DNA of 64,000 nucleotides from Armatimonadota bacterium. GTDB taxonomy: Bacteria > Armatimonadota > Zipacnadia > UBA1398 > JAKPQA01. This document shows, piece by piece, positions 30,661 to 39,731 of the stretch (position 1 is the stretch's first letter; each line of letters begins with the position of its first letter). The stretch spans positions 124,001 through 188,000 of the forward strand of contig JAKPQA010000035.1 of assembly GCA_029547025.1 (NCBI GenBank), given 5' to 3'. Made by a program: the position numbers and the translations under genes. The notes under the pieces are model-generated. The model was not told the origin of the DNA and did not search any database. It was given only the letters and a program-made list of their open reading frames with translations.

Positions 30661-31602
30661 TCAACTCACGGGCGTGCCCGTCAGGGGGTTGTACACGGGC
30701 GGCGAGCCGGGGCACGAGTACGCCTTCTTGCCCCACAGGAAATGGGTCGGATCCAGCGTCTTGTCCAGCAGATACCACTTCGCATGACCATCCGCGAAGA
30801 TGTAGTTGCTGCCGCCGTTGTGCGCCTGGGGGTTGATGTAGCAGATGTGATGGTTGCCCATGGCGCTACTCGCCTCAGCCTGAGCGATGGCCTGCCAGGC
30901 CTGTTGTGGCGTCAGGGCGATGACCGGCTGGCCGGCCCAGCTCTCGCCGTCGAACACGGCTCCACCCATGCTCACCGCATTGGTCGGCCGGTGCGACTTG
31001 ATGGCGTCGCCACCCGTGGGAGAACTGTCCAGCAGGCACTGGATCTTGTTGGTGTACTCGGCGACCATGATCACTTCGGCCGGAGCGTCCACCTGCGACA
31101 GGGACACGCACTGCTGGGGCACTGCCGCGTACTTCTTCCGAGGAAGCAACAGCTCGTTGGCGACGTAGCTCAGGCGGTAGGCCTGGATATCCATCACGGG
31201 GCGGAGCGGGGTCTGGCCCGCCGGGGGATCGACCGGAGGGGTCGTGAAGCACGTCGGAGCCCAGCCCTTCGGCTCGTGGGTCGGGCAGACGAAGAGCCCC
31301 ATGTTCTTGGTGTAGGGCATGATCAGGCCGCTCCACTGGACATAGCCGTTGCTGCTGTTCGCGCCATTGATGTAGTAGTACGACATGGGCAGCGTGTCGT
31401 CGTAGTCGCCGGCGTACATCATCATGGCCAGGCCGAGTTCCTTGGCATGGGTGAGGCAGGTCGTCTGTCGGGCTTTCTCGCGAGCTTTGGCGAACACGGG
31501 GAATAGGATGGCGGCCAGGATCGCGATGATGGCGATCACGACCAGAAGCTCGATGAGCGTGAAGCCTCCGGTGGTCCGCCGCTTGCGGAGCAGTCGGTCC
31601 AT
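30661..31602 (-). CDS. Type IV prepilin-like (DUF1559-type) protein
   Basis: A 313-residue pseudopilin-like protein. The prepilin peptidase site and N-methylation helix are seen in [20 protein letters not shown] near residue 12, followed by [16 protein letters not shown] and [17 protein letters not shown]. The C-terminus has the family's [11 protein letters not shown] motif. Proteins of this kind occur in many copies in Armatimonadota and Planctomycetes, and are exported through type II secretion or type IV pilus-like machines of unclear role. The ATG at 31602 has AGGAAGG upstream. A four-copy Pho-box-like array and a -10-like element lie about 85-140 bases upstream. A hairpin follows the gene. 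Confidence 0.92.
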
Positions 31603-31687: not shown

Positions 31688-31742
31688 AGCCTACCGGGGC
31701 GCCGTTATGTCACGGTTAGGGGAGTGTTAGGTTGAGGTTAAG
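31688..31742 (-). promoter_or_regulatory. Four-copy Pho-box-like array with -10-like element
   Basis: On the minus strand, four 8-base units recur at exactly 11-bp intervals: CTTAACCT (31742-31735), CCTAACAC (31731-31724), CCTAACCG (31720-31713) and CATAACGG (31709-31702). Eight bases later is TAGGCT (31693-31688), a weak -10. The 8+3 spacing and CTTAACCT core match Pho boxes described for PhoB/SphR-type regulators, notably in cyanobacteria. The orientation points to the prepilin gene. Confidence 0.65.
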
Positions 31743-31774: not shown

Positions 31775-32662
31775 TTGTCGACGAACCTCGGTACGATCTA
31801 CCTAGCCGACAATCTGGAGGTGCTCACGGGGCTCGCGTCCGGCTCCGCCAACCTCATCTACATAGACCCGCCATTCAACACAGGCAAGGTTCAGCAGAGG
31901 ACTCAGATCCGCACCATCGGCTCAGAGGATGGCGACCGAGTGGGGTTCAAGGGTCGTCGCTACGAGACGATCGCGCTCGGCAAACGCGGCTTCCGTGATC
32001 TGTTCGACGACTACCTCGCCTTCCTTGAGCCGCGGCTTGCCGAGGCGCACCGGGTCCTGGCGCCGGATGGGACGCTCTACTTCCACGTGGACTACCGTGA
32101 GGTCCACTACTGCAAGGTGCTCCTCGATGCCATCTTCGGCCGCGAGTGCTTTCTCAACGAGGTCATCTGGGCCTACGACTATGGGGGCCGGTCGAAGACC
32201 AGGTGGCCGCCCAAGCACGACAACATCCTGGTGTACACCAAAGACCCGAGGCGGTACACGTTCAACTGGGATGACATCGAGCGAATCCCCTACATGGCCC
32301 CTGGGCTGGTTGGCCCAGACAAGGCAGCCCGCGGCAAAGTGCCCACGGACACATGGTGGCATACGATTGTGCCAACCCACGGTTCGGAGAAGACCGGCTA
32401 CCCCACGCAGAAGCCTCTCGGCATCCTCAAGCGCATCATTGGGGCTTCCTCGCGGAAGGGGGACGTGGTTCTGGACTTCTTCGCCGGCAGCGGCACCACG
32501 GGAGCCGCCTGTCTCGCACTGGGCAGACGGTTTGTGCTGGTAGACAACAGCCCCCAGGCCCTCGAGGCAATGGCCCGCCGGTTCGCCGGCGTGGCCGGCA
32601 TTCAATGGGTGGGATTCGATCCCGGAGCCCACGCCGGGGATGTCGGTCCCTTGGCCCCTTAA
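31775..32662 (+). CDS. Site-specific DNA methyltransferase (beta-class N4/N6 type)
   Basis: Solitary amino-methyltransferase of 295 residues. The catalytic motif IV is IDPPFNTGK (D31-F34) near the N-terminus. The AdoMet-binding motif I, FFAGSGTTG (F236-G243), is near the C-terminus, the order of the beta class. GYPTQKPLGILKRII also matches this class. It could methylate adenine-N6 or cytosine-N4, and the specificity cannot be read. No restriction enzyme is nearby, so it is probably an orphan or regulatory methylase. It starts with TTG at 31775 with GAGGAG upstream. It directly precedes phoB (102 bases) on the same strand. Confidence 0.9.
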   Translation: MSTNLGTIYLADNLEVLTGLASGSANLIYIDPPFNTGKVQQRTQIRTIGSEDGDRVGFKGRRYETIALGKRGFRDLFDDYLAFLEPRLAEAHRVLAPDGTLYFHVDYREVHYCKVLLDAIFGRECFLNEVIWAYDYGGRSKTRWPPKHDNILVYTKDPRRYTFNWDDIERIPYMAPGLVGPDKAARGKVPTDTWWHTIVPTHGSEKTGYPTQKPLGILKRIIGASSRKGDVVLDFFAGSGTTGAACLALGRRFVLVDNSPQALEAMARRFAGVAGIQWVGFDPGAHAGDVGPLAP

Positions 32663-32690
32663 CCATGTCATAATGCCAGGGTGCTATCAT
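32658..32690 (+). promoter_or_regulatory. Candidate Pho box and -10 of the phoB promoter
   Basis: CTTAACCA (32658-32665) and CATAATGC (32669-32676) are spaced 11 bp start to start. Eight bases later TATCAT (32685-32690) matches a -10 hexamer in five of six positions. The geometry equals that of the array before the prepilin gene. It would make phoB autoregulated; the first unit overlaps the methyltransferase stop. Confidence 0.6.
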
Positions 32691-32764: not shown

Positions 32765-33454
32765 ATGACGATGCCGGGCACCATTCTGGTCGTCGAGGAC
32801 GATCAGGACATCGCCGACTCGGTCGCCTACTCGCTGCGGCGTGAGGGCTACGAGGTCGAGGTCGCGTATGATGGCTCCGAGGGCGTTCGCGTGGGGCTCG
32901 AGCAGAAGCCCGACCTGGTGATCCTCGATCTGATGCTTCCGGGCCTGAGCGGCTTTGGCGTGTTCCGCGAGCTTCGGAGACGTTCGACCGTGCCCGTCAT
33001 CATGTTGACCGCCCGCGTCAGCGAGAATGATCGCGTGGCCGGACTCGAGCTCGGGGCCGATGACTACATCACCAAGCCATTCTCACTTCGCGAGTTGGTG
33101 GCGCGCGTCAAGACCGTGCTGCGGCGTGCCGAGCAAGCGGCCGGCCCCGCCGACGAGGTGCTCACCGTGAAAGGGCTCGTGATCGACCGTGGCCGGCGGA
33201 CGGTGACGGTAGATGGCCGCCAGGTCACCCTGACGCCCCAGGAGTTCGCCCTGCTCGAGTGCCTGGCTCGGCACCCGGGGCGAGCCATGTCGCGTGAGGT
33301 CCTCCTCCAGCAGGCGTGGAGTGAGAGTGAGTACATTGATCCCCGGACCGTCGACGTTCACGTGCGCTGGGTCCGGGGCAAGATCGAGGCTGAGCCCAGC
33401 CAGCCCACGCGGATTCTCACCGTGCGGGGCGTCGGCTACAAGCTGGCGGAGTGA
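32765..33454 (+). CDS. phoB: PhoB-type response regulator (OmpR family)
   Basis: A 229-residue two-component regulator. The receiver domain has the acidic pocket VVEDD, the phosphorylated D55 (LVILDLMLPG), and K104 (DYITKPFS). It is followed by an OmpR/PhoB winged-helix DNA-binding domain (about 130-229, LTPQEFALLECLARHPGRAM, VDVHVRWVRGKIE). Its position directly before phoR and the pst genes identifies it as the phosphate-limitation regulator. The ATG at 32765 has AGGTG five bases upstream. The phoR start lies only three bases after the stop. A candidate Pho box precedes the gene. Confidence 0.95.
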   Translation: MTMPGTILVVEDDQDIADSVAYSLRREGYEVEVAYDGSEGVRVGLEQKPDLVILDLMLPGLSGFGVFRELRRRSTVPVIMLTARVSENDRVAGLELGADDYITKPFSLRELVARVKTVLRRAEQAAGPADEVLTVKGLVIDRGRRTVTVDGRQVTLTPQEFALLECLARHPGRAMSREVLLQQAWSESEYIDPRTVDVHVRWVRGKIEAEPSQPTRILTVRGVGYKLAE

Positions 33455-33457
33455 GCC

Positions 33458-35224
33458 GTGCACATGGCACGGTGGACCCGATCATTGGCTGTCCACGCAA
33501 CACTGCTCGCCTTGGTGCTCGTCTCAGCCAGCCTCTACACCTACCACACCACGCGGGCTCGCCTGGTATCGGAACTCCGGCTGCGGCTGGAGGTGGCCTG
33601 CGCTCTTGCGGAGGACTCGCTGGTCCGGCAGCCTCCCATGCAGGGGGAACTGCCGGGGCGCGTCATCGAGCTGGCAGCGCTCTGCTCGGCACGCGTCGAG
33701 GCCTTCTCACCGCCCGGGGTGCTCGAGGCCGCGTCGGAGGAGACGCTCTCGAGCGCCGATCAGCGTCTGGAACCCGAGGTAGCCAGCGCGCGGTCGCAGG
33801 GCCACGGGGTCGCCGAGCGACGTGTGGTTCCACATCACCCTGCGCGCCTGTTCGTCGCCCGCTATCGCCCGGGCGGCCGTTGGCTTGTACGGCTCTCGGC
33901 CCCCCTGGACTCTATCGCGGATGCCGCGCTGAGCTCGGCGTGGAAGACCCTCTTGGCCGGCACTCCCTCCGCCATTGCTCTGGTGGGACTGCTGGCGTGG
34001 GGTCAGCGCGTGTGGGCGCGGTCCACCGGACTGGTTCGGGACCGCATCGCGGCCATGGGGGCTGCCGGCGAGACCACAAGACGGGACACCGCCATCCCGC
34101 CCGAACTCCGGCCGCTCGTCGAGGCGTGTGCCGACTCAGCCCAGCGCCTTGGGCAGTCTCAGCGCGAGCTGGGTGACGCCGTCTCGCGCCTCACAACCAT
34201 CCTGGACCAGATGGCCGACGGCGTGCTCCTTCTCAGCCCTGATCAGAGCATCCAGGTGATCAACCCCGCTGCGGCCGCCATGCTTGGTACCGATCGACGC
34301 GTGGCGACCGGCCGCCCGCTGGTGGAAGCTACCCTGGACTTCGACCTCGCCGAGCTCGTTCGCCGCGCCCTCGGCACGGGTGTCATGGTCGAGGACCGGC
34401 CGCGCCTGTCCGATGACGGCGCCCGGGTCATCTCAGCGGCGGCCAAGCCGCTGATCGGACCGGCCGGCGAGCGCGCCGGTGTGATCATCACGCTCCGCGA
34501 CGTGACGCAGGCGCACCGGTTCCAGGAGGCCCGCCAGGACTTCGTCGCCAACGCCAGCCACGAGTTGCGTACTCCATTGGCCGCCATCTCGGCCATGGCC
34601 GAGACCCTTCAGGACGGCGCGGCGGACGACCCCGGTGCCCGCGCCAGATTCCTCGCTCGCATCATCGACACCACGCGGCGCATGACCCAGCTCGTAGACG
34701 ACATGATGGCATTGGCCCAGTTGGAGGAGAGCAGCTCCCCAGGCCCCCGGGGACGGCTCCTGGATGTGCGGGCGGCGCTGGAGGATGCGGCGTCTCGACT
34801 CGAGCCTCAAGCCGCTGCGCGAGGTATCTCGATCACGATCGACACACCCGGTGAGCTCCGTCTATGGTGCTGCGAGGACGACCTCGCCGCCGCTTTGGTC
34901 AACCTGGTGGACAACGCCGTGAAGTACTCACCCGATGGCGCGGAAGTGCGACTGGAGGCCAGCGAATCCGACGATATGGTACGAATTGGCGTTATCGACC
35001 ACGGTCCGGGCATCCCGGAGAAGAGCCGAGAGCGCGTCTTCGAGCGTTTCTACCGAATCGACAAGGGGCGGTCTCGTCTGGTGGGTGGCACGGGCCTCGG
35101 GCTGAGTATCGTCCGCCACGCCATCGAGCGCAACGGGGGCCGCGTGTGGGTCGAGAGCCCCGAGCACCCGGGTTCGCGGTTCGTGGTGTTGCTGCCCGCC
35201 CGACCTCCGGCGACGCCGCCTTAA
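33458..35224 (+). CDS. phoR: Phosphate regulon sensor histidine kinase PhoR
   Basis: Membrane-bound kinase of 588 residues. It has two transmembrane helices (about 11-28 and 165-185) flanking a periplasmic region of some 135 residues, longer than in E. coli PhoR. A PAS domain follows (about 240-350, ILDQMADGVLLLSPDQSIQV), then the HisKA box FVANASHELRTPL with H368, and the ATPase with N box NLVDNAVKYSPDG and G2 box GGTGLGLSIVRHAIERNGG. It presumably phosphorylates the adjacent PhoB under phosphate limitation, with input from PstSCAB/PhoU. The GTG at 33458 is better spaced from GGAG than the ATG two codons on. Confidence 0.94.
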   Translation: MHMARWTRSLAVHATLLALVLVSASLYTYHTTRARLVSELRLRLEVACALAEDSLVRQPPMQGELPGRVIELAALCSARVEAFSPPGVLEAASEETLSSADQRLEPEVASARSQGHGVAERRVVPHHPARLFVARYRPGGRWLVRLSAPLDSIADAALSSAWKTLLAGTPSAIALVGLLAWGQRVWARSTGLVRDRIAAMGAAGETTRRDTAIPPELRPLVEACADSAQRLGQSQRELGDAVSRLTTILDQMADGVLLLSPDQSIQVINPAAAAMLGTDRRVATGRPLVEATLDFDLAELVRRALGTGVMVEDRPRLSDDGARVISAAAKPLIGPAGERAGVIITLRDVTQAHRFQEARQDFVANASHELRTPLAAISAMAETLQDGAADDPGARARFLARIIDTTRRMTQLVDDMMALAQLEESSSPGPRGRLLDVRAALEDAASRLEPQAAARGISITIDTPGELRLWCCEDDLAAALVNLVDNAVKYSPDGAEVRLEASESDDMVRIGVIDHGPGIPEKSRERVFERFYRIDKGRSRLVGGTGLGLSIVRHAIERNGGRVWVESPEHPGSRFVVLLPARPPATPP

Positions 35225-35238
35225 CACGGGCTTAAGCC
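35220..35238 (+). promoter_or_regulatory. Candidate Pho box upstream of pstS
   Basis: CTTAACAC (35220-35227) and CTTAAGCC (35231-35238) are 11 bp apart and overlap the phoR stop, about 105 bases before pstS. A single inverted unit (GTGTTAAG, 35265-35272) lies further on. No convincing -10 follows at the expected distance, so this is weaker than the phoB site. Confidence 0.4.
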
Positions 35239-35342: not shown

Positions 35343-36272
35343 ATGAGACGAAGTCAGTGGACCAGCATCGCGATATCCCTGGGGCTTGTCGGCAGCGCAC
35401 TGCTTGGGGGATGCGCCAAGCCGGAGGAGACCGAGGAGCCGGCAGCGCCCGTGGTGAGCACTAAAAAGGCATCTCAGCCGGGGGCCGGCGGCGCCGGGGG
35501 CGAGATCGTGGCCAAGGGGTCCGATACCCTGTTGCAGGTCGCTCAGGCCATGGCCGAGGCCTATCAGGCGGCCAACCCGGGCGTCAAGATCAGCGTGTCC
35601 GGTGGGGGTTCTGGCACCGGCTTTCAGGCGCTGATCGAGAAGACGTGCGACATTGCCAACGCCTCGCGTCAGATCAAGAATGAAGAGGTTGAGCAGGCCA
35701 AAGCCAAGGGAATCGAGCCGGTCGAGAACCTGATTGGCTACGACGGCATCGCCGTCATCGTCAACAAGGCGAATCCGGTGAACGAGCTCACCGTGGACCA
35801 GATCTCCGACCTGTATGTTGGCTCGACCAACTCGTGGGACAAGCTCGGTGGCAAGGGCGAGGTCGTCCTGGTCTCCCGCGATTCCACCTCTGGAACCTAT
35901 GAGTACTTCCTTGAGGAGATCATCAAGAAGGGCGACAAGAAGAGCACGCGCGAGTTCGCCCCGAGCATCATGGCCCTGCAGTCCAACCCTGACGTTCGGC
36001 GTCAGGTGACCGAGTCTGAGGGCGCCATTGGCTATATCGGCCTCGGGTATGTCGACGATTCGGTGAAAGTCATCGGCGTGATCGGCAAGAAGGGCGGCGC
36101 GGCCGTGATGCCGTCCGTCGAGACCGTGAAGGATGGCTCCTACCCCATCTCACGCCCGCTTTACATGTACACCGACAAGAACGCGCCTAAGAAGGTCTCG
36201 GACTACATCAGCTGGGTCTTGGGCGATGAGGGACAAGCCATCGTCAAAGAGAAGGGCTTCGTGCCCAAGTAG
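35343..36272 (+). CDS. pstS: Phosphate ABC transporter substrate-binding lipoprotein
   Basis: Lipoprotein of 309 residues; the signal ends with the lipobox LLGGC (C at about residue 24). The mature domain begins with GEIVAKGSDTLLQVAQAMAE. It contains the phosphate-binding elements of the PstS family (SVSGGGSGTGFQALI, NASRQI, SRDSTSGTYEYF). It binds phosphate outside the membrane and passes it to PstCA. GGAG lies upstream of the ATG at 35343. The downstream intergenic region forms a strong hairpin that could let this transcript accumulate above the rest of the operon. Confidence 0.95.
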   Translation: MRRSQWTSIAISLGLVGSALLGGCAKPEETEEPAAPVVSTKKASQPGAGGAGGEIVAKGSDTLLQVAQAMAEAYQAANPGVKISVSGGGSGTGFQALIEKTCDIANASRQIKNEEVEQAKAKGIEPVENLIGYDGIAVIVNKANPVNELTVDQISDLYVGSTNSWDKLGGKGEVVLVSRDSTSGTYEYFLEEIIKKGDKKSTREFAPSIMALQSNPDVRRQVTESEGAIGYIGLGYVDDSVKVIGVIGKKGGAAVMPSVETVKDGSYPISRPLYMYTDKNAPKKVSDYISWVLGDEGQAIVKEKGFVPK

Positions 36273-36300
36273 GCCCTGCACAGAGCTCGCACACCCATGA

Positions 36301-36334
36301 CGGAGATGGCGGCCGGCAGCGGCCGCCATCTCCG
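36301..36334 (+). promoter_or_regulatory. Strong intercistronic hairpin between pstS and pstC
   Basis: A perfect 15-bp inverted repeat (CGGAGATGGCGGCCG and its complement) encloses a GCAG loop, 28 bases after pstS and 16 before pstC. No T-tract follows, so it probably works as a 3' stabiliser or partial attenuator, not a full terminator. Confidence 0.65.
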
Positions 36335-36350
36335 ATGCAGAGGACACCCG

Positions 36351-37298
36351 ATGAAGCTGCGCCGCATTGGCCGCGTGTTGGAGTGGGCCATTGAGCTTGT
36401 CATCCGCTCCTGTGGCGTGGCCTCCGTTGTGTTCGTGATCCTGATCCTGGCGTTCCTGCTGCGAAACGCGCTTCCGGCATTCAACAGCGTGAGCCTGGGT
36501 GAAGCGCTGGGCGGCAGACTGTGGCGGCCGACGAGCAATCCTCCTCAGTTTGGGTTCCTGCCGCTGATTCTGGGCAGTGCTCTCGTCACGGTCGGCTCGT
36601 TGCTGATCTCGGTTCCCATCGGGATCGGGGCTGCCGTGTTCCTGGCCGAAGTGGCGCCTCGGCGCGTGCGCGAGATCGCCAAGCCCATCGTGGAGCTTCT
36701 GGGCGCAGTCCCATCTGTCGTGTTCGGCTTCGTCGGTCTGATGCTAGTCGGCGCGTGGATTCAGAGAGCATCGAGGGCAGCGGGGGATGCGTTGCCGGGT
36801 CCCGATTGGCTCAAGACCGCGCTGAACATGCCCTCGAGCATGGCGGCCATCACGGGCGCGGTGCTGTTGGCACTCATGACTCTGCCCACCATCGTGTCGA
36901 TCGCCGAGGATGCGTTGGATAGCGTGCCGGAGCGTTTCCGGCAGGGCTCTCTTGCTCTCGGCGCCACCCGCTGGCAGACGATTCGGGGCGTCACCATCCC
37001 GGCCGCGCGTTCGGGCATCATGGCCTCCGTCATGCTCGGAGTGGGCAGGGCGGTCGGCGAGACCATGACGGTTCTGATGGTCACGGGCAACGCCGCGGTG
37101 GTCCCGTCATTGACCACCGGCCTGTTCCGTCCCGTGCGAACCATGACGGCCACCATCGCTGCCGAGATGGGGGAGACCGCCCATCAGACGCCTCACTTCC
37201 ACGTCCTCTTCCTGCTCGGACTGCTGCTCTTCCTCATCACCTTTTGCGTGAACACGACGGCTGACATCATCACGCACAGGGGGCGCCATGAGCACTAG
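36351..37298 (+). CDS. pstC: Phosphate ABC transporter permease PstC
   Basis: Inner-membrane permease of 315 residues with about six helices. The binding-protein-dependent transport signature is in the C-terminal half (ALGATRWQTIRGVTIPAARS, GIMASVMLGVGRAVGETMTV). The ATG at 36351 has GAGG seven bases upstream; an open frame back to 36297 runs through the hairpin and is rejected. Its end overlaps pstA by 11 bases, indicating coupled synthesis of the two permease subunits. Confidence 0.95.
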   Translation: MKLRRIGRVLEWAIELVIRSCGVASVVFVILILAFLLRNALPAFNSVSLGEALGGRLWRPTSNPPQFGFLPLILGSALVTVGSLLISVPIGIGAAVFLAEVAPRRVREIAKPIVELLGAVPSVVFGFVGLMLVGAWIQRASRAAGDALPGPDWLKTALNMPSSMAAITGAVLLALMTLPTIVSIAEDALDSVPERFRQGSLALGATRWQTIRGVTIPAARSGIMASVMLGVGRAVGETMTVLMVTGNAAVVPSLTTGLFRPVRTMTATIAAEMGETAHQTPHFHVLFLLGLLLFLITFCVNTTADIITHRGRHEH

Positions 37299-38238
37299 CA
37301 CGCTCCCGCGAGCGGAGGCCTGGCCCAGTACCCCGTCGGCCCGGCGGGCCCGCCGGGTCCAGGCCGTCGCCTTCGTGGCGCTGGGCGCCTCGGCACTGGC
37401 CATCATGGTACCGGCCGTGCTGTTCGTGGGCTTTGTGGTCGTGCGCGGGGCTTCGGCCATCAACTGGGAGTTCATCACGGCCATGCCGCGCGACAACATG
37501 CGGGCGGGCGGCATCATGCCCGCCATAGTGGGATCCCTCTACCTGGTCGTGGTCACCATGGCCCTGGCCACTCCCGTTGGCATACTCGCCGCTGTCTATC
37601 TGAGCGAGTATGCGCGAAAGGGGCCCCTGGTCCGCGCCATCCGCGTCGCCATTCTCAACCTGGCGGGTGTGCCCTCCATCGTATATGGCCTCTTCGGCAT
37701 GGGTCTCTTCGTGATGGTCGTGATGCCGCAGGTGCTGCGGCTGACACGGGGCGGTGGCGAGTCCGGCAAGAGTGCGTGCCTTCTGGCCGCTGCCGCGACC
37801 ATGGCGGTACTGATCCTGCCCATCGTCATCGCAACCACGGAAGAGGCGCTTCGGCAGGTCCCCCAGGGGCTCCGCGCCGCCAGCCTCGCCCTGGGAGCCA
37901 CTCGGTGGCAGACGATCTGGCGTGTCGTGATCCCTAACGCCTTGCCCGGCATCCTGACTGGGCTGGTGCTCGCGGTGGGGCGGGCGGCGGGCGAGACGGC
38001 GCCGATCCTGCTGACAGGTGCCTTCTTCTGGATGTCCCACCTGCCCCGACCAGCCGAGGCACTGCTCGAACCCTTCATGGCGCTCCCGTTCCATCTCTTC
38101 ACAGTTTCGACGCAAATGCCCGATGCCCCGGAGAAGCTTCGCTGGGGCACCGCCCTCGTGCTCATCATCATGGTCGTCGGAGCCAACTCCATCGGGATCG
38201 TGATCCGGAGCTGGCTGCGGACGAGAAGGAAGGTCTAG
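37288..38238 (+). CDS. pstA: Phosphate ABC transporter permease PstA
   Basis: Second permease subunit, 316 residues. About six helices are visible and the EAA-type loop SLALGATRWQTIWRVVIPNA precedes GLVLAVGRAAGETAPILLTG, a PstA hallmark. It forms the channel with PstC and is energised by PstB. The ATG at 37288 lies inside the end of pstC, preceded by AGGGGG. pstB follows six bases after its stop. Confidence 0.95.
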   Translation: MSTSTLPRAEAWPSTPSARRARRVQAVAFVALGASALAIMVPAVLFVGFVVVRGASAINWEFITAMPRDNMRAGGIMPAIVGSLYLVVVTMALATPVGILAAVYLSEYARKGPLVRAIRVAILNLAGVPSIVYGLFGMGLFVMVVMPQVLRLTRGGGESGKSACLLAAAATMAVLILPIVIATTEEALRQVPQGLRAASLALGATRWQTIWRVVIPNALPGILTGLVLAVGRAAGETAPILLTGAFFWMSHLPRPAEALLEPFMALPFHLFTVSTQMPDAPEKLRWGTALVLIIMVVGANSIGIVIRSWLRTRRKV

Positions 38239-38244
38239 GCTCGG

Positions 38245-39060
38245 ATGGCTACGGCACCCGGACTCATGGTCGGCAGTGTCGATGCGGATCCCGTCAGTGA
38301 CTGCCGGTGCGCCAAGTTTGAGACCCACGGGTTGACCGTGCACTACGGGGGATTCGAGGCCCTCAAAGCGGTGGACGTCGCCATCGGAAGCTGTGAGGTC
38401 ACGGCGCTCATCGGCCCATCGGGATGCGGGAAGTCAACCTTCCTGCGGTGCCTCAATCGCATGAACGACATGATTGATGGTGTCCGCATTAGCGGTCAGG
38501 TCGTCATGGATGGTCAGGATGTCTACGACCGACGCGTCGACGTGGTCGAACTGCGGAAACGGGTCGGGATGGTGTTCCAGCAGCCCAATCCCTTTCCCAT
38601 GAGCATCTTCGACAACGTGGCCTATGGCCCGCGGCTCCACGGGACACGCAAGATGTCGGACCTCGAGGTGATTGTCGAGCGCACTCTGCGCGAGGCGGCC
38701 CTGTGGGATGAGGTGAAGGACAAGCTGCGCCAATCGGCGCTCGCGCTCTCCGGCGGCCAGCAGCAGCGCCTGTGTATCGCACGGGTCATGGCCGTACAGC
38801 CCGAGGTCATCCTCATGGATGAGCCGTGCAGCGCCCTGGACCCTAACGCCACATTCCGCATCGAGGAGCTCATGCTGTCCCTGCGGGAGAACTACACCGT
38901 CATCATCGTGACCCACAATATGTACCAGGCGGCGCGCTGCTCACAGAAGACCGGGTTCTTCCTCCTTGGCGAGCTGGTTGAGTTTGGTGATACCGAGCAG
39001 GTCTTTCAGGCACCGGCCGACCGGCGCACCGAGGACTACATCAGGGGGCGGTTCGGATGA
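38245..39060 (+). CDS. pstB: Phosphate ABC transporter ATP-binding protein PstB
   Basis: ATPase of 271 residues. Walker A is GPSGCGKST, the Q-loop is [13 protein letters not shown], the signature is [13 protein letters not shown], Walker B is [13 protein letters not shown], and the switch histidine is in [12 protein letters not shown]. An N-terminal stretch of about 25 residues precedes the usual start of the domain. It drives phosphate uptake with PstC and PstA. The stop overlaps the phoU start as ATGA. Confidence 0.95.
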
Positions 39061-39731
39061 TCGACACTCAGCCAGGCGCGCCACGATCGGTCTTCACGTC
39101 CGAGCTGGTCGAGCTCCACGACACGGTGCTTCGCATGGGCACCTTTGTGATGAGCATGCTCGAACGCGGCTTGCAGGCCCTGGTCGAACAGAACCTGGAG
39201 CTGGCGGAGGAAGTGCGCCGAAGCGACGACGTGGCCGATGCCCTCGATATCGGCATCGAGGAGGCGGCGCTGAGACTCCTCGCGCTCCAGCACCCCATGG
39301 CCAGTGATCTGCGCTGCGTGGCCGGCGCCATTCGCATCGCCGCCGATCTCGAGCGCGTGGGCGACTACTCTAAGGACATCGCCAAGGTCGCCCGGCGCCT
39401 CCACGCCGAGCCCTATCACTGGGCCCTCGAGGACATCCCGCTCATGGGCAGGCGCACCCATGAGATGATTCGGATGGCACTGCGTTCGTTCGTGGAGCGG
39501 GACCTCGAGCTGGCGCGGCAAGTCGCGGAGATGGATCGTGAGGTCGATTCCCTGTGGCGCACCGTGAGGGATCAACTCATCGGCCACATGCGCGACGACC
39601 CGGGCAACGTCTTTCAGGGCACCCACCTGTTGCTCGCGGCCCGTTATCTCGAGCGCATTGGCGATCACACGGTGAACGTTGTCGAGCGCGTCAGCTACAT
39701 GGAGACCGGTCGCCTCGAACACCTCGTGTAG
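39057..39731 (+). CDS. phoU: Phosphate transport regulator PhoU
   Basis: All-helical PhoU protein of 224 residues with two three-helix repeats. Metal-binding-like motifs E/DxxxD are recognisable in [20 protein letters not shown] and [13 protein letters not shown], and the first repeat ends [17 protein letters not shown]. The second repeat ends [20 protein letters not shown]. It links the Pst transporter to PhoR to repress the regulon when phosphate is ample. It is the last gene of the operon. A GC-rich imperfect inverted repeat follows before the convergent murB. Confidence 0.95.

Follow-up and report, generated by a model that had tools for sequence, protein, structure and literature searches.

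A tandem Pho-box promoter conserved in front of a clade of DUF1559 prepilin genes in Armatimonadota, very probably activated by PhoB

Introduction

The Hxc system of Pseudomonas aeruginosa is a type II secretion system under Pho control. In Caulobacter, the phosphate-starvation protein ElpS occurs together with an adjacent type II secretion system (PMC2996285). At the level of the promoter, the SphR Pho box of cyanobacteria consists of at least three copies of 8-bp CTTAACCT repeats with 3-bp linkers and is situated upstream of phoA and pst genes, and the Pho box of Escherichia coli lies 10 bp upstream of a TAN3T (PMC1906773).

Here we describe a four-unit array of this type in an Armatimonadota genome, and propose that the region 31688–31742 of the window is very probably the PhoB-activated promoter of the DUF1559 prepilin gene at 30661–31602. 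The 11-bp Pho motif itself is of a known kind. A literature search that covered mostly papers accessible without subscription yielded no paper that treats DUF1559 and prepilins together, and none in which a Pho box, type II secretion, phosphate starvation and a pseudopilin are all discussed; a conserved Pho-regulated DUF1559 pseudopilin appears not to have been described.

Results

Anatomy of the array and the neighbouring phoB-pst locus

The window is the whole 64,000-nucleotide stretch of DNA analysed (G000:C55:124001-188000), which belongs to a genome of 6.3 Mb in 369 contigs. The features relevant to the array are as follows.

30661–31602, minus strand: DUF1559 prepilin/pseudopilin gene (313 aa), the proposed target, with an N-terminal methylation motif and a C-terminal H-X9-DG motif
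31688–31693, minus strand: −10-like hexamer TAGGCT, 10 nt past the last CATAAC (8 nt past the 8-mer)
31702–31742, minus strand: Pho-box array of four units, CTTAACCT-caa-CCTAACAC-tcc-CCTAACCG-tga-CATAACGG, with an 11-bp period
31775–32662, plus strand: N6/N4 DNA methyltransferase gene (PF01555), between the divergent prepilin and phoB Pho promoters
32658–32676, plus strand: phoB Pho box of two units, CTTAACCA (32658–32665)-tgt-CATAATGC (32669–32676)
32685–32690, plus strand: phoB −10-like TATCAT, 8 bases past the 8-mer, i.e. with the same 10-nt spacing as at the prepilin gene
32765–33454, plus strand: gene of a PhoB-type response regulator (Response_reg and Trans_reg_C), the putative binder of the array, in a phoR-pstSCAB-phoU context
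33458–35224, plus strand: phoR-type histidine kinase gene, assigned by domain and family profile matches
35220–35238, plus strand: Pho-like pair of two units in front of pstS, sharing bases with the stop codon of phoR
35343–39731, plus strand: pstS-pstC-pstA-pstB-phoU, assigned by open reading frames, a PstS-type domain match and clustered homologs in relatives

Read on the minus strand from position 31742, the promoter has the sequence CTTAACCTCAA CCTAACACTCC CCTAACCGTGA CATAACGGCGCCCCGG TAGGCT, with CTTAACCT at 31742–31735, CCTAACAC at 31731–31724, CCTAACCG at 31720–31713 and CATAACGG at 31709–31702. All four units are of the CNTAAC type and follow each other with a period of exactly 11 bp, the first being identical to the cyanobacterial type and the remaining ones being CCTAAC or CATAAC; TAGGCT is separated from the prepilin start codon by 85 nt, and the upstream end of the array lies ∼32 bp from the methyltransferase start. 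The four units that the first-pass annotation had reported at exact 11-bp spacing on the minus strand were thus all present in sequence and coordinates, as were the TAGGCT eight bases after the last of them (31693–31688) and the equal gap between the last phoB unit and TATCAT (32676 to 32685). Its identification of the array as a PhoB-type Pho box agrees with the SphR-like unit, the layout of direct repeats of an 8-bp unit plus a 3-bp spacer, and the E. coli-like distance of ∼10 bp between the last repeat and TAN3T, which is found at the prepilin, phoB and alkaline phosphatase promoters (see below).

The region upstream of phoB reads CTTAACCATGT CATAATGCCAGGGTGC TATCAT. As the score of its product against the PhoB equivalog model TIGR02154 (238 bits) is below the strict cut-off of 296.2, the regulator is called PhoB on the basis of gene context, being encoded together with phoR and pstSCAB-phoU; the names PstC, PstA, PstB and PhoU derive from reading the sequence, the domain scan in the pst operon having covered PstS. 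The pair facing pstS (35220–35238) has no −10 element at 10 nt, unlike the pstS promoters of several relatives, and pstS may here be transcribed by read-through from phoB or from a degenerate box. The TAA stop codons of the methyltransferase gene (32658–32663) and of phoR (35220–35225) both fall inside CTTAAC Pho units.

The prepilin and its ortholog clade

The product of the gene in front of which the array is placed matched PF07596, PF07963, TIGR04294 and TIGR02532, with scores above the cut-offs for the N_methyl domain (32.9 against 21.2 bits) and for PF07596 (42.1 against 23.3 bits), whereas its match to the GspG major pseudopilin model TIGR01710 (36.6 bits) stayed below the cut-off of 88.85 and was confined to the N-terminal helix. 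The predicted structure comprises a long pilin helix and a confidently modelled head (pLDDT 90.9), and a fold search with this model gave matches limited to the pilin helix, none of them at E ≤ 0.001. The genome also carries a prepilin peptidase (PF01478, one match) and several assembly ATPases (PF00437). DUF1559 prepilin-like proteins are numerous in this lineage, with 45–74 per genome in the three genomes counted.

Orthologs were searched for in 151 genomes of the phylum, with the best 15 candidates per genome being scored; a match at E ≤ 1e-40 was present in 46 of the 151, and identity of orthologs extended down to ∼44%. The orthologs formed one clade (SH-aLRT 100) separate from 25 paralogs. 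This clade is marked by a K-[ST]-H-R motif, in which K202, H204 and R205 are invariant in 24 aligned sequences and which occurred in none of 27 DUF1559 paralogs, and by a conserved C-terminal (L)WG(K) region.

Conservation of the promoter at orthologs

For each gene, the upstream 300 bp were scored with a unit matrix whose training set consisted solely of ten pstS/phoB promoters from other genomes. A significant sense-strand array of 11-bp period (shuffle p ≤ 0.01) was detected at 21 of 29 orthologs, the studied gene included, and at none of 26 DUF1559 paralogs (Mann–Whitney p = 8e-8), the paralog controls being drawn from three genomes and the orthologs from across the phylum. The mean array score of the orthologs was 14.7 at period 11, compared with at most 0.2 at periods 8–10 and 12–15. 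A hand-made matrix, derived from the studied array and the published consensus type and fixed before the orthologs were scored, gave the same separation of orthologs from paralogs (p = 6e-8). The remaining eight of the 29 orthologs had no significant sense-strand array within 300 bp upstream; the array of the ortholog in G020 is situated ∼390 bp upstream, and some others scored on the opposite strand only. In nine of the 21 ortholog arrays, TANNNT follows the last unit at exactly 10 nt, every other offset occurring at most twice, and the same offset is the dominant one in the pst/phoB arrays (5 of 10). When genome contigs were searched with a profile of the ortholog alignment, one full-length relative was obtained (L130, 38% identity, array score 13.8), the other matches being many unrelated prepilins found through the common pilin N-terminus; as an informal extra control, 1% of the prepilin open reading frames from this search had an array score of 15 or more.

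The prepilin gene had been named as the target from the reading direction of the array, and this assignment is upheld by a same-strand array that is conserved at orthologs and absent at paralogs. The same note had regarded a pseudopilin as an unusual regulon member; the prepilin instead seems to belong to the Pho regulon of this phylum as a regular and conserved member, where conservation is phylum-wide in the sense of a spread across many families rather than presence in every genome.

Rarity of such promoters in the genome

Genome-wide counts were obtained by pattern searches. Only two places match the exact pattern TAAC-7-TAAC-7-TAAC, the prepilin array and C248:12720-12756, each with four units, and the reversed control pattern had no match in the whole genome even with one mismatch permitted. 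By a rough hand estimate from base composition, ∼6e-5 four-unit arrays per genome would be expected by chance, and the score observed in the 300-bp upstream region was reached by none of 300 dinucleotide shuffles (p = 0.003, the floor value). Patterns that included the −10 element returned four promoters, those of the prepilin gene and phoB together with C248:12741 and C199:313.

The C248 array, CTTAACGATGA GCTAACGCAGA CCTAACCGGGG CATAACGCGTGTTGTG TAGGCT, shows a CATAAC-10 nt-TAGGCT geometry identical to that of the prepilin promoter. It is located between the only two PF00245 alkaline phosphatase genes detected in the genome, directly upstream of the second and in the same orientation, and thus a near-perfect copy of the prepilin promoter serves a classical phosphate-starvation gene. 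In the genome-wide search for the repeat near phosphate genes that the earlier annotation had proposed, the sole other four-copy array proved to precede an alkaline phosphatase gene. That annotation had named arrays of equal quality remote from phosphate genes as evidence against its own reading; no four-unit case of this kind was encountered, and C199:313-356, with three units, constitutes one partial exception. This array (L019, minus strand, CATAAC-10 nt-TACGTT) is situated at a contig edge and faces a small HicB-like open reading frame, whose match is below the Pfam cut-off, without an evident phosphate role.

The genome encodes a second regulator similar to PhoB (47% identity, E ≤ 1e-50), and PhoB is not necessarily the only regulator to recognize CTTAAC-type units, so that a different member of the OmpR family could bind the array through the same unit and leave the prepilin outside phosphate control. 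This is very unlikely, since the same unit, period and −10 spacing are seen at alkaline phosphatase, at phoB and at the pstS genes of relatives, since such promoters are genome-wide almost exclusively these, and since the array was detected with a matrix trained on pstS/phoB promoters. PhoB might also bind the array and act as a repressor, the filament then being off under starvation: Pho regulators can repress as well, and the sign of regulation is not certain from sequence alone. We regard this as highly improbable given that the array occupies the position of activator–RNA polymerase contact: the 10 nt between it and the TAN3T downstream are exactly the distance seen at the phoB and alkaline phosphatase promoters.

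Gene neighbourhood and the intervening methyltransferase

Four orthologs near phoB/pst, in G001, G003, G018 and G020, represent four families (f2, f3, f7 and f9) and are full length with 64–72% identity, PhoR identity in the same genomes being lower (34–41%). In G003 and G001, the prepilin gene and phoB are directly divergent and the region between them contains two divergent arrays, each facing one gene; in G020 and G018, the prepilin gene lies inside the phoB-phoR(-pst) cluster. The layout of the studied genome is that of G003 and G001 plus the methyltransferase gene between both promoters. Since no methyltransferase homolog was found in the phoB loci of 20 relatives, this gene is probably a later, lineage-specific insertion and not the target of the array, and it was apparently inserted without destroying either the prepilin or the phoB promoter. 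In pho clusters of relatives, Porin_O_P-type (phosphate-selective porin) genes were observed (L035 14480-15736, L042 13245-14225 and L111 5982-7013), some of which have a Pho array in front.

In other genomes the ortholog stands alone, yet the array is usually retained: orthologs with no recognized pho gene nearby, e.g. in G014, G145, G173 and G174, have three to six array units. The ortholog of G145 (L120 10450-11609), with six consecutive Pho units, adjoins aquaporin-like and arsenate-reductase-like genes (named by eye), arsenate being a phosphate analogue. Clustering of the genes around orthologs revealed no partner recurring in more than two genomes outside the pho/pst-cluster genes, cluster 1 of that analysis being the antisense frame of the prepilin gene. 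Orthologs are found alone or beside pho/pst genes with neighbours that do not recur, a part of which was scanned for type II secretion domains.

These arrangements bear on whether the array serves the other flank, i.e. the methyltransferase gene or, from its reverse side, the phoB-pst operon, with the prepilin gene as a bystander. As the array ends ∼32 bp from the methyltransferase start, and activators with bidirectional effects exist, a side effect on the methyltransferase is possible. Control of the other flank in place of the prepilin gene is nevertheless extremely unlikely, because the orientation of the units and the −10 element point at the prepilin gene, phoB has a correctly oriented box of its own, relatives lacking the methyltransferase retain the prepilin-facing array, and so do orthologs far from phoB; control of the methyltransferase was rejected. 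Although short motifs can arise randomly and the gene behind one of the four Pho-like promoters, that at C199, has no evident phosphate role, a functionless chance repeat has next to no probability and was rejected in view of the genome-wide counts with a reversed control of zero, the shuffles, and the conservation at the same gene across families.

Discussion

The sequence support for PhoB regulation of the prepilin gene comes from the array and its geometry, its rarity, its co-occurrence with phosphate genes, and its conservation at orthologs combined with its absence at paralogs. As the same probable Pho switch precedes the same gene in most of the distant relatives tested, a surface-filament protein appears to be part of the phosphate-hunger response of this group. 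At low phosphate, PhoR would phosphorylate PhoB, both being encoded next door, and phosphorylated PhoB would occupy the four 11-bp units head to tail. The promoter-proximal unit, which ends 10 nt before the −10 element, would substitute for a −35 element, with RNA polymerase being recruited as in E. coli. In phosphate starvation, production of the pseudopilin would then accompany that of alkaline phosphatase and of the PhoBR/Pst system.

What the pseudopilin does can be proposed tentatively. By analogy with phosphate-controlled type II secretion in Proteobacteria, our best guess, at somewhat less than even odds, is a dedicated pseudopilin of a type II secretion or type IV filament apparatus through which proteins for phosphate scavenging are exported or displayed. 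Perhaps, too, the clade with the K-[ST]-H-R motif constitutes a dedicated, Pho-controlled phosphate-starvation pseudopilin present in much of the phylum, which would be tied to phosphate by its promoter and not by an operon, and which might alter the composition of a surface filament or secretion machine in such a way as to mobilize, or even bind, phosphate compounds.

To our knowledge, few DUF1559 prepilin-like proteins have an assigned role. One DUF1559 clade can now be assigned a likely regulator, with low phosphate as the condition, and a promoter that is widely conserved; its function thereby becomes directly testable. For a phylum that has received little study, the data also outline a Pho regulon whose CTTAAC-type boxes resemble the cyanobacterial ones, and they link a surface protein to phosphate scavenging through promoter conservation instead of operon structure.

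Compared with known systems, the prepilin array shares with the SphR box the 8-bp CTTAACCT-type units, the 3-bp spacers and the 11-bp period, and differs from it in belonging to another lineage, in its four copies and in having CATAAC as the promoter-proximal unit; the paper on SphR mentions no pilin target and contains no word starting with ‘pilin’ (PMC1906773). With the PhoB-sigma70 promoters of E. coli it has in common tandem direct repeats of 11-bp period placed 10 bp upstream of TAN3T, whereas its units read CTTAAC/CCTAAC, unlike that of E. coli, and the target is a pseudopilin. The parallel to the Pho-controlled type II secretion systems of Proteobacteria is a functional one, in that secretion parts or cargo are coupled both to phosphate starvation and to the activity of alkaline phosphatase; here, by contrast, it is a single, usually stand-alone DUF1559 gene that bears the Pho promoter, with no type II secretion operon recognized among the neighbours scanned and homology through the pilin N-terminus only. 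With other DUF1559 (PF07596, SBP_bac_10)/H-X9-DG proteins, finally, the prepilin shares the methylation motif, the DUF1559 match and the H-X9-DG motif, whereas its orthologs stand apart from them as a separate clade with the K-[ST]-H-R motif and the (L)WG(K) region at the C-terminus.
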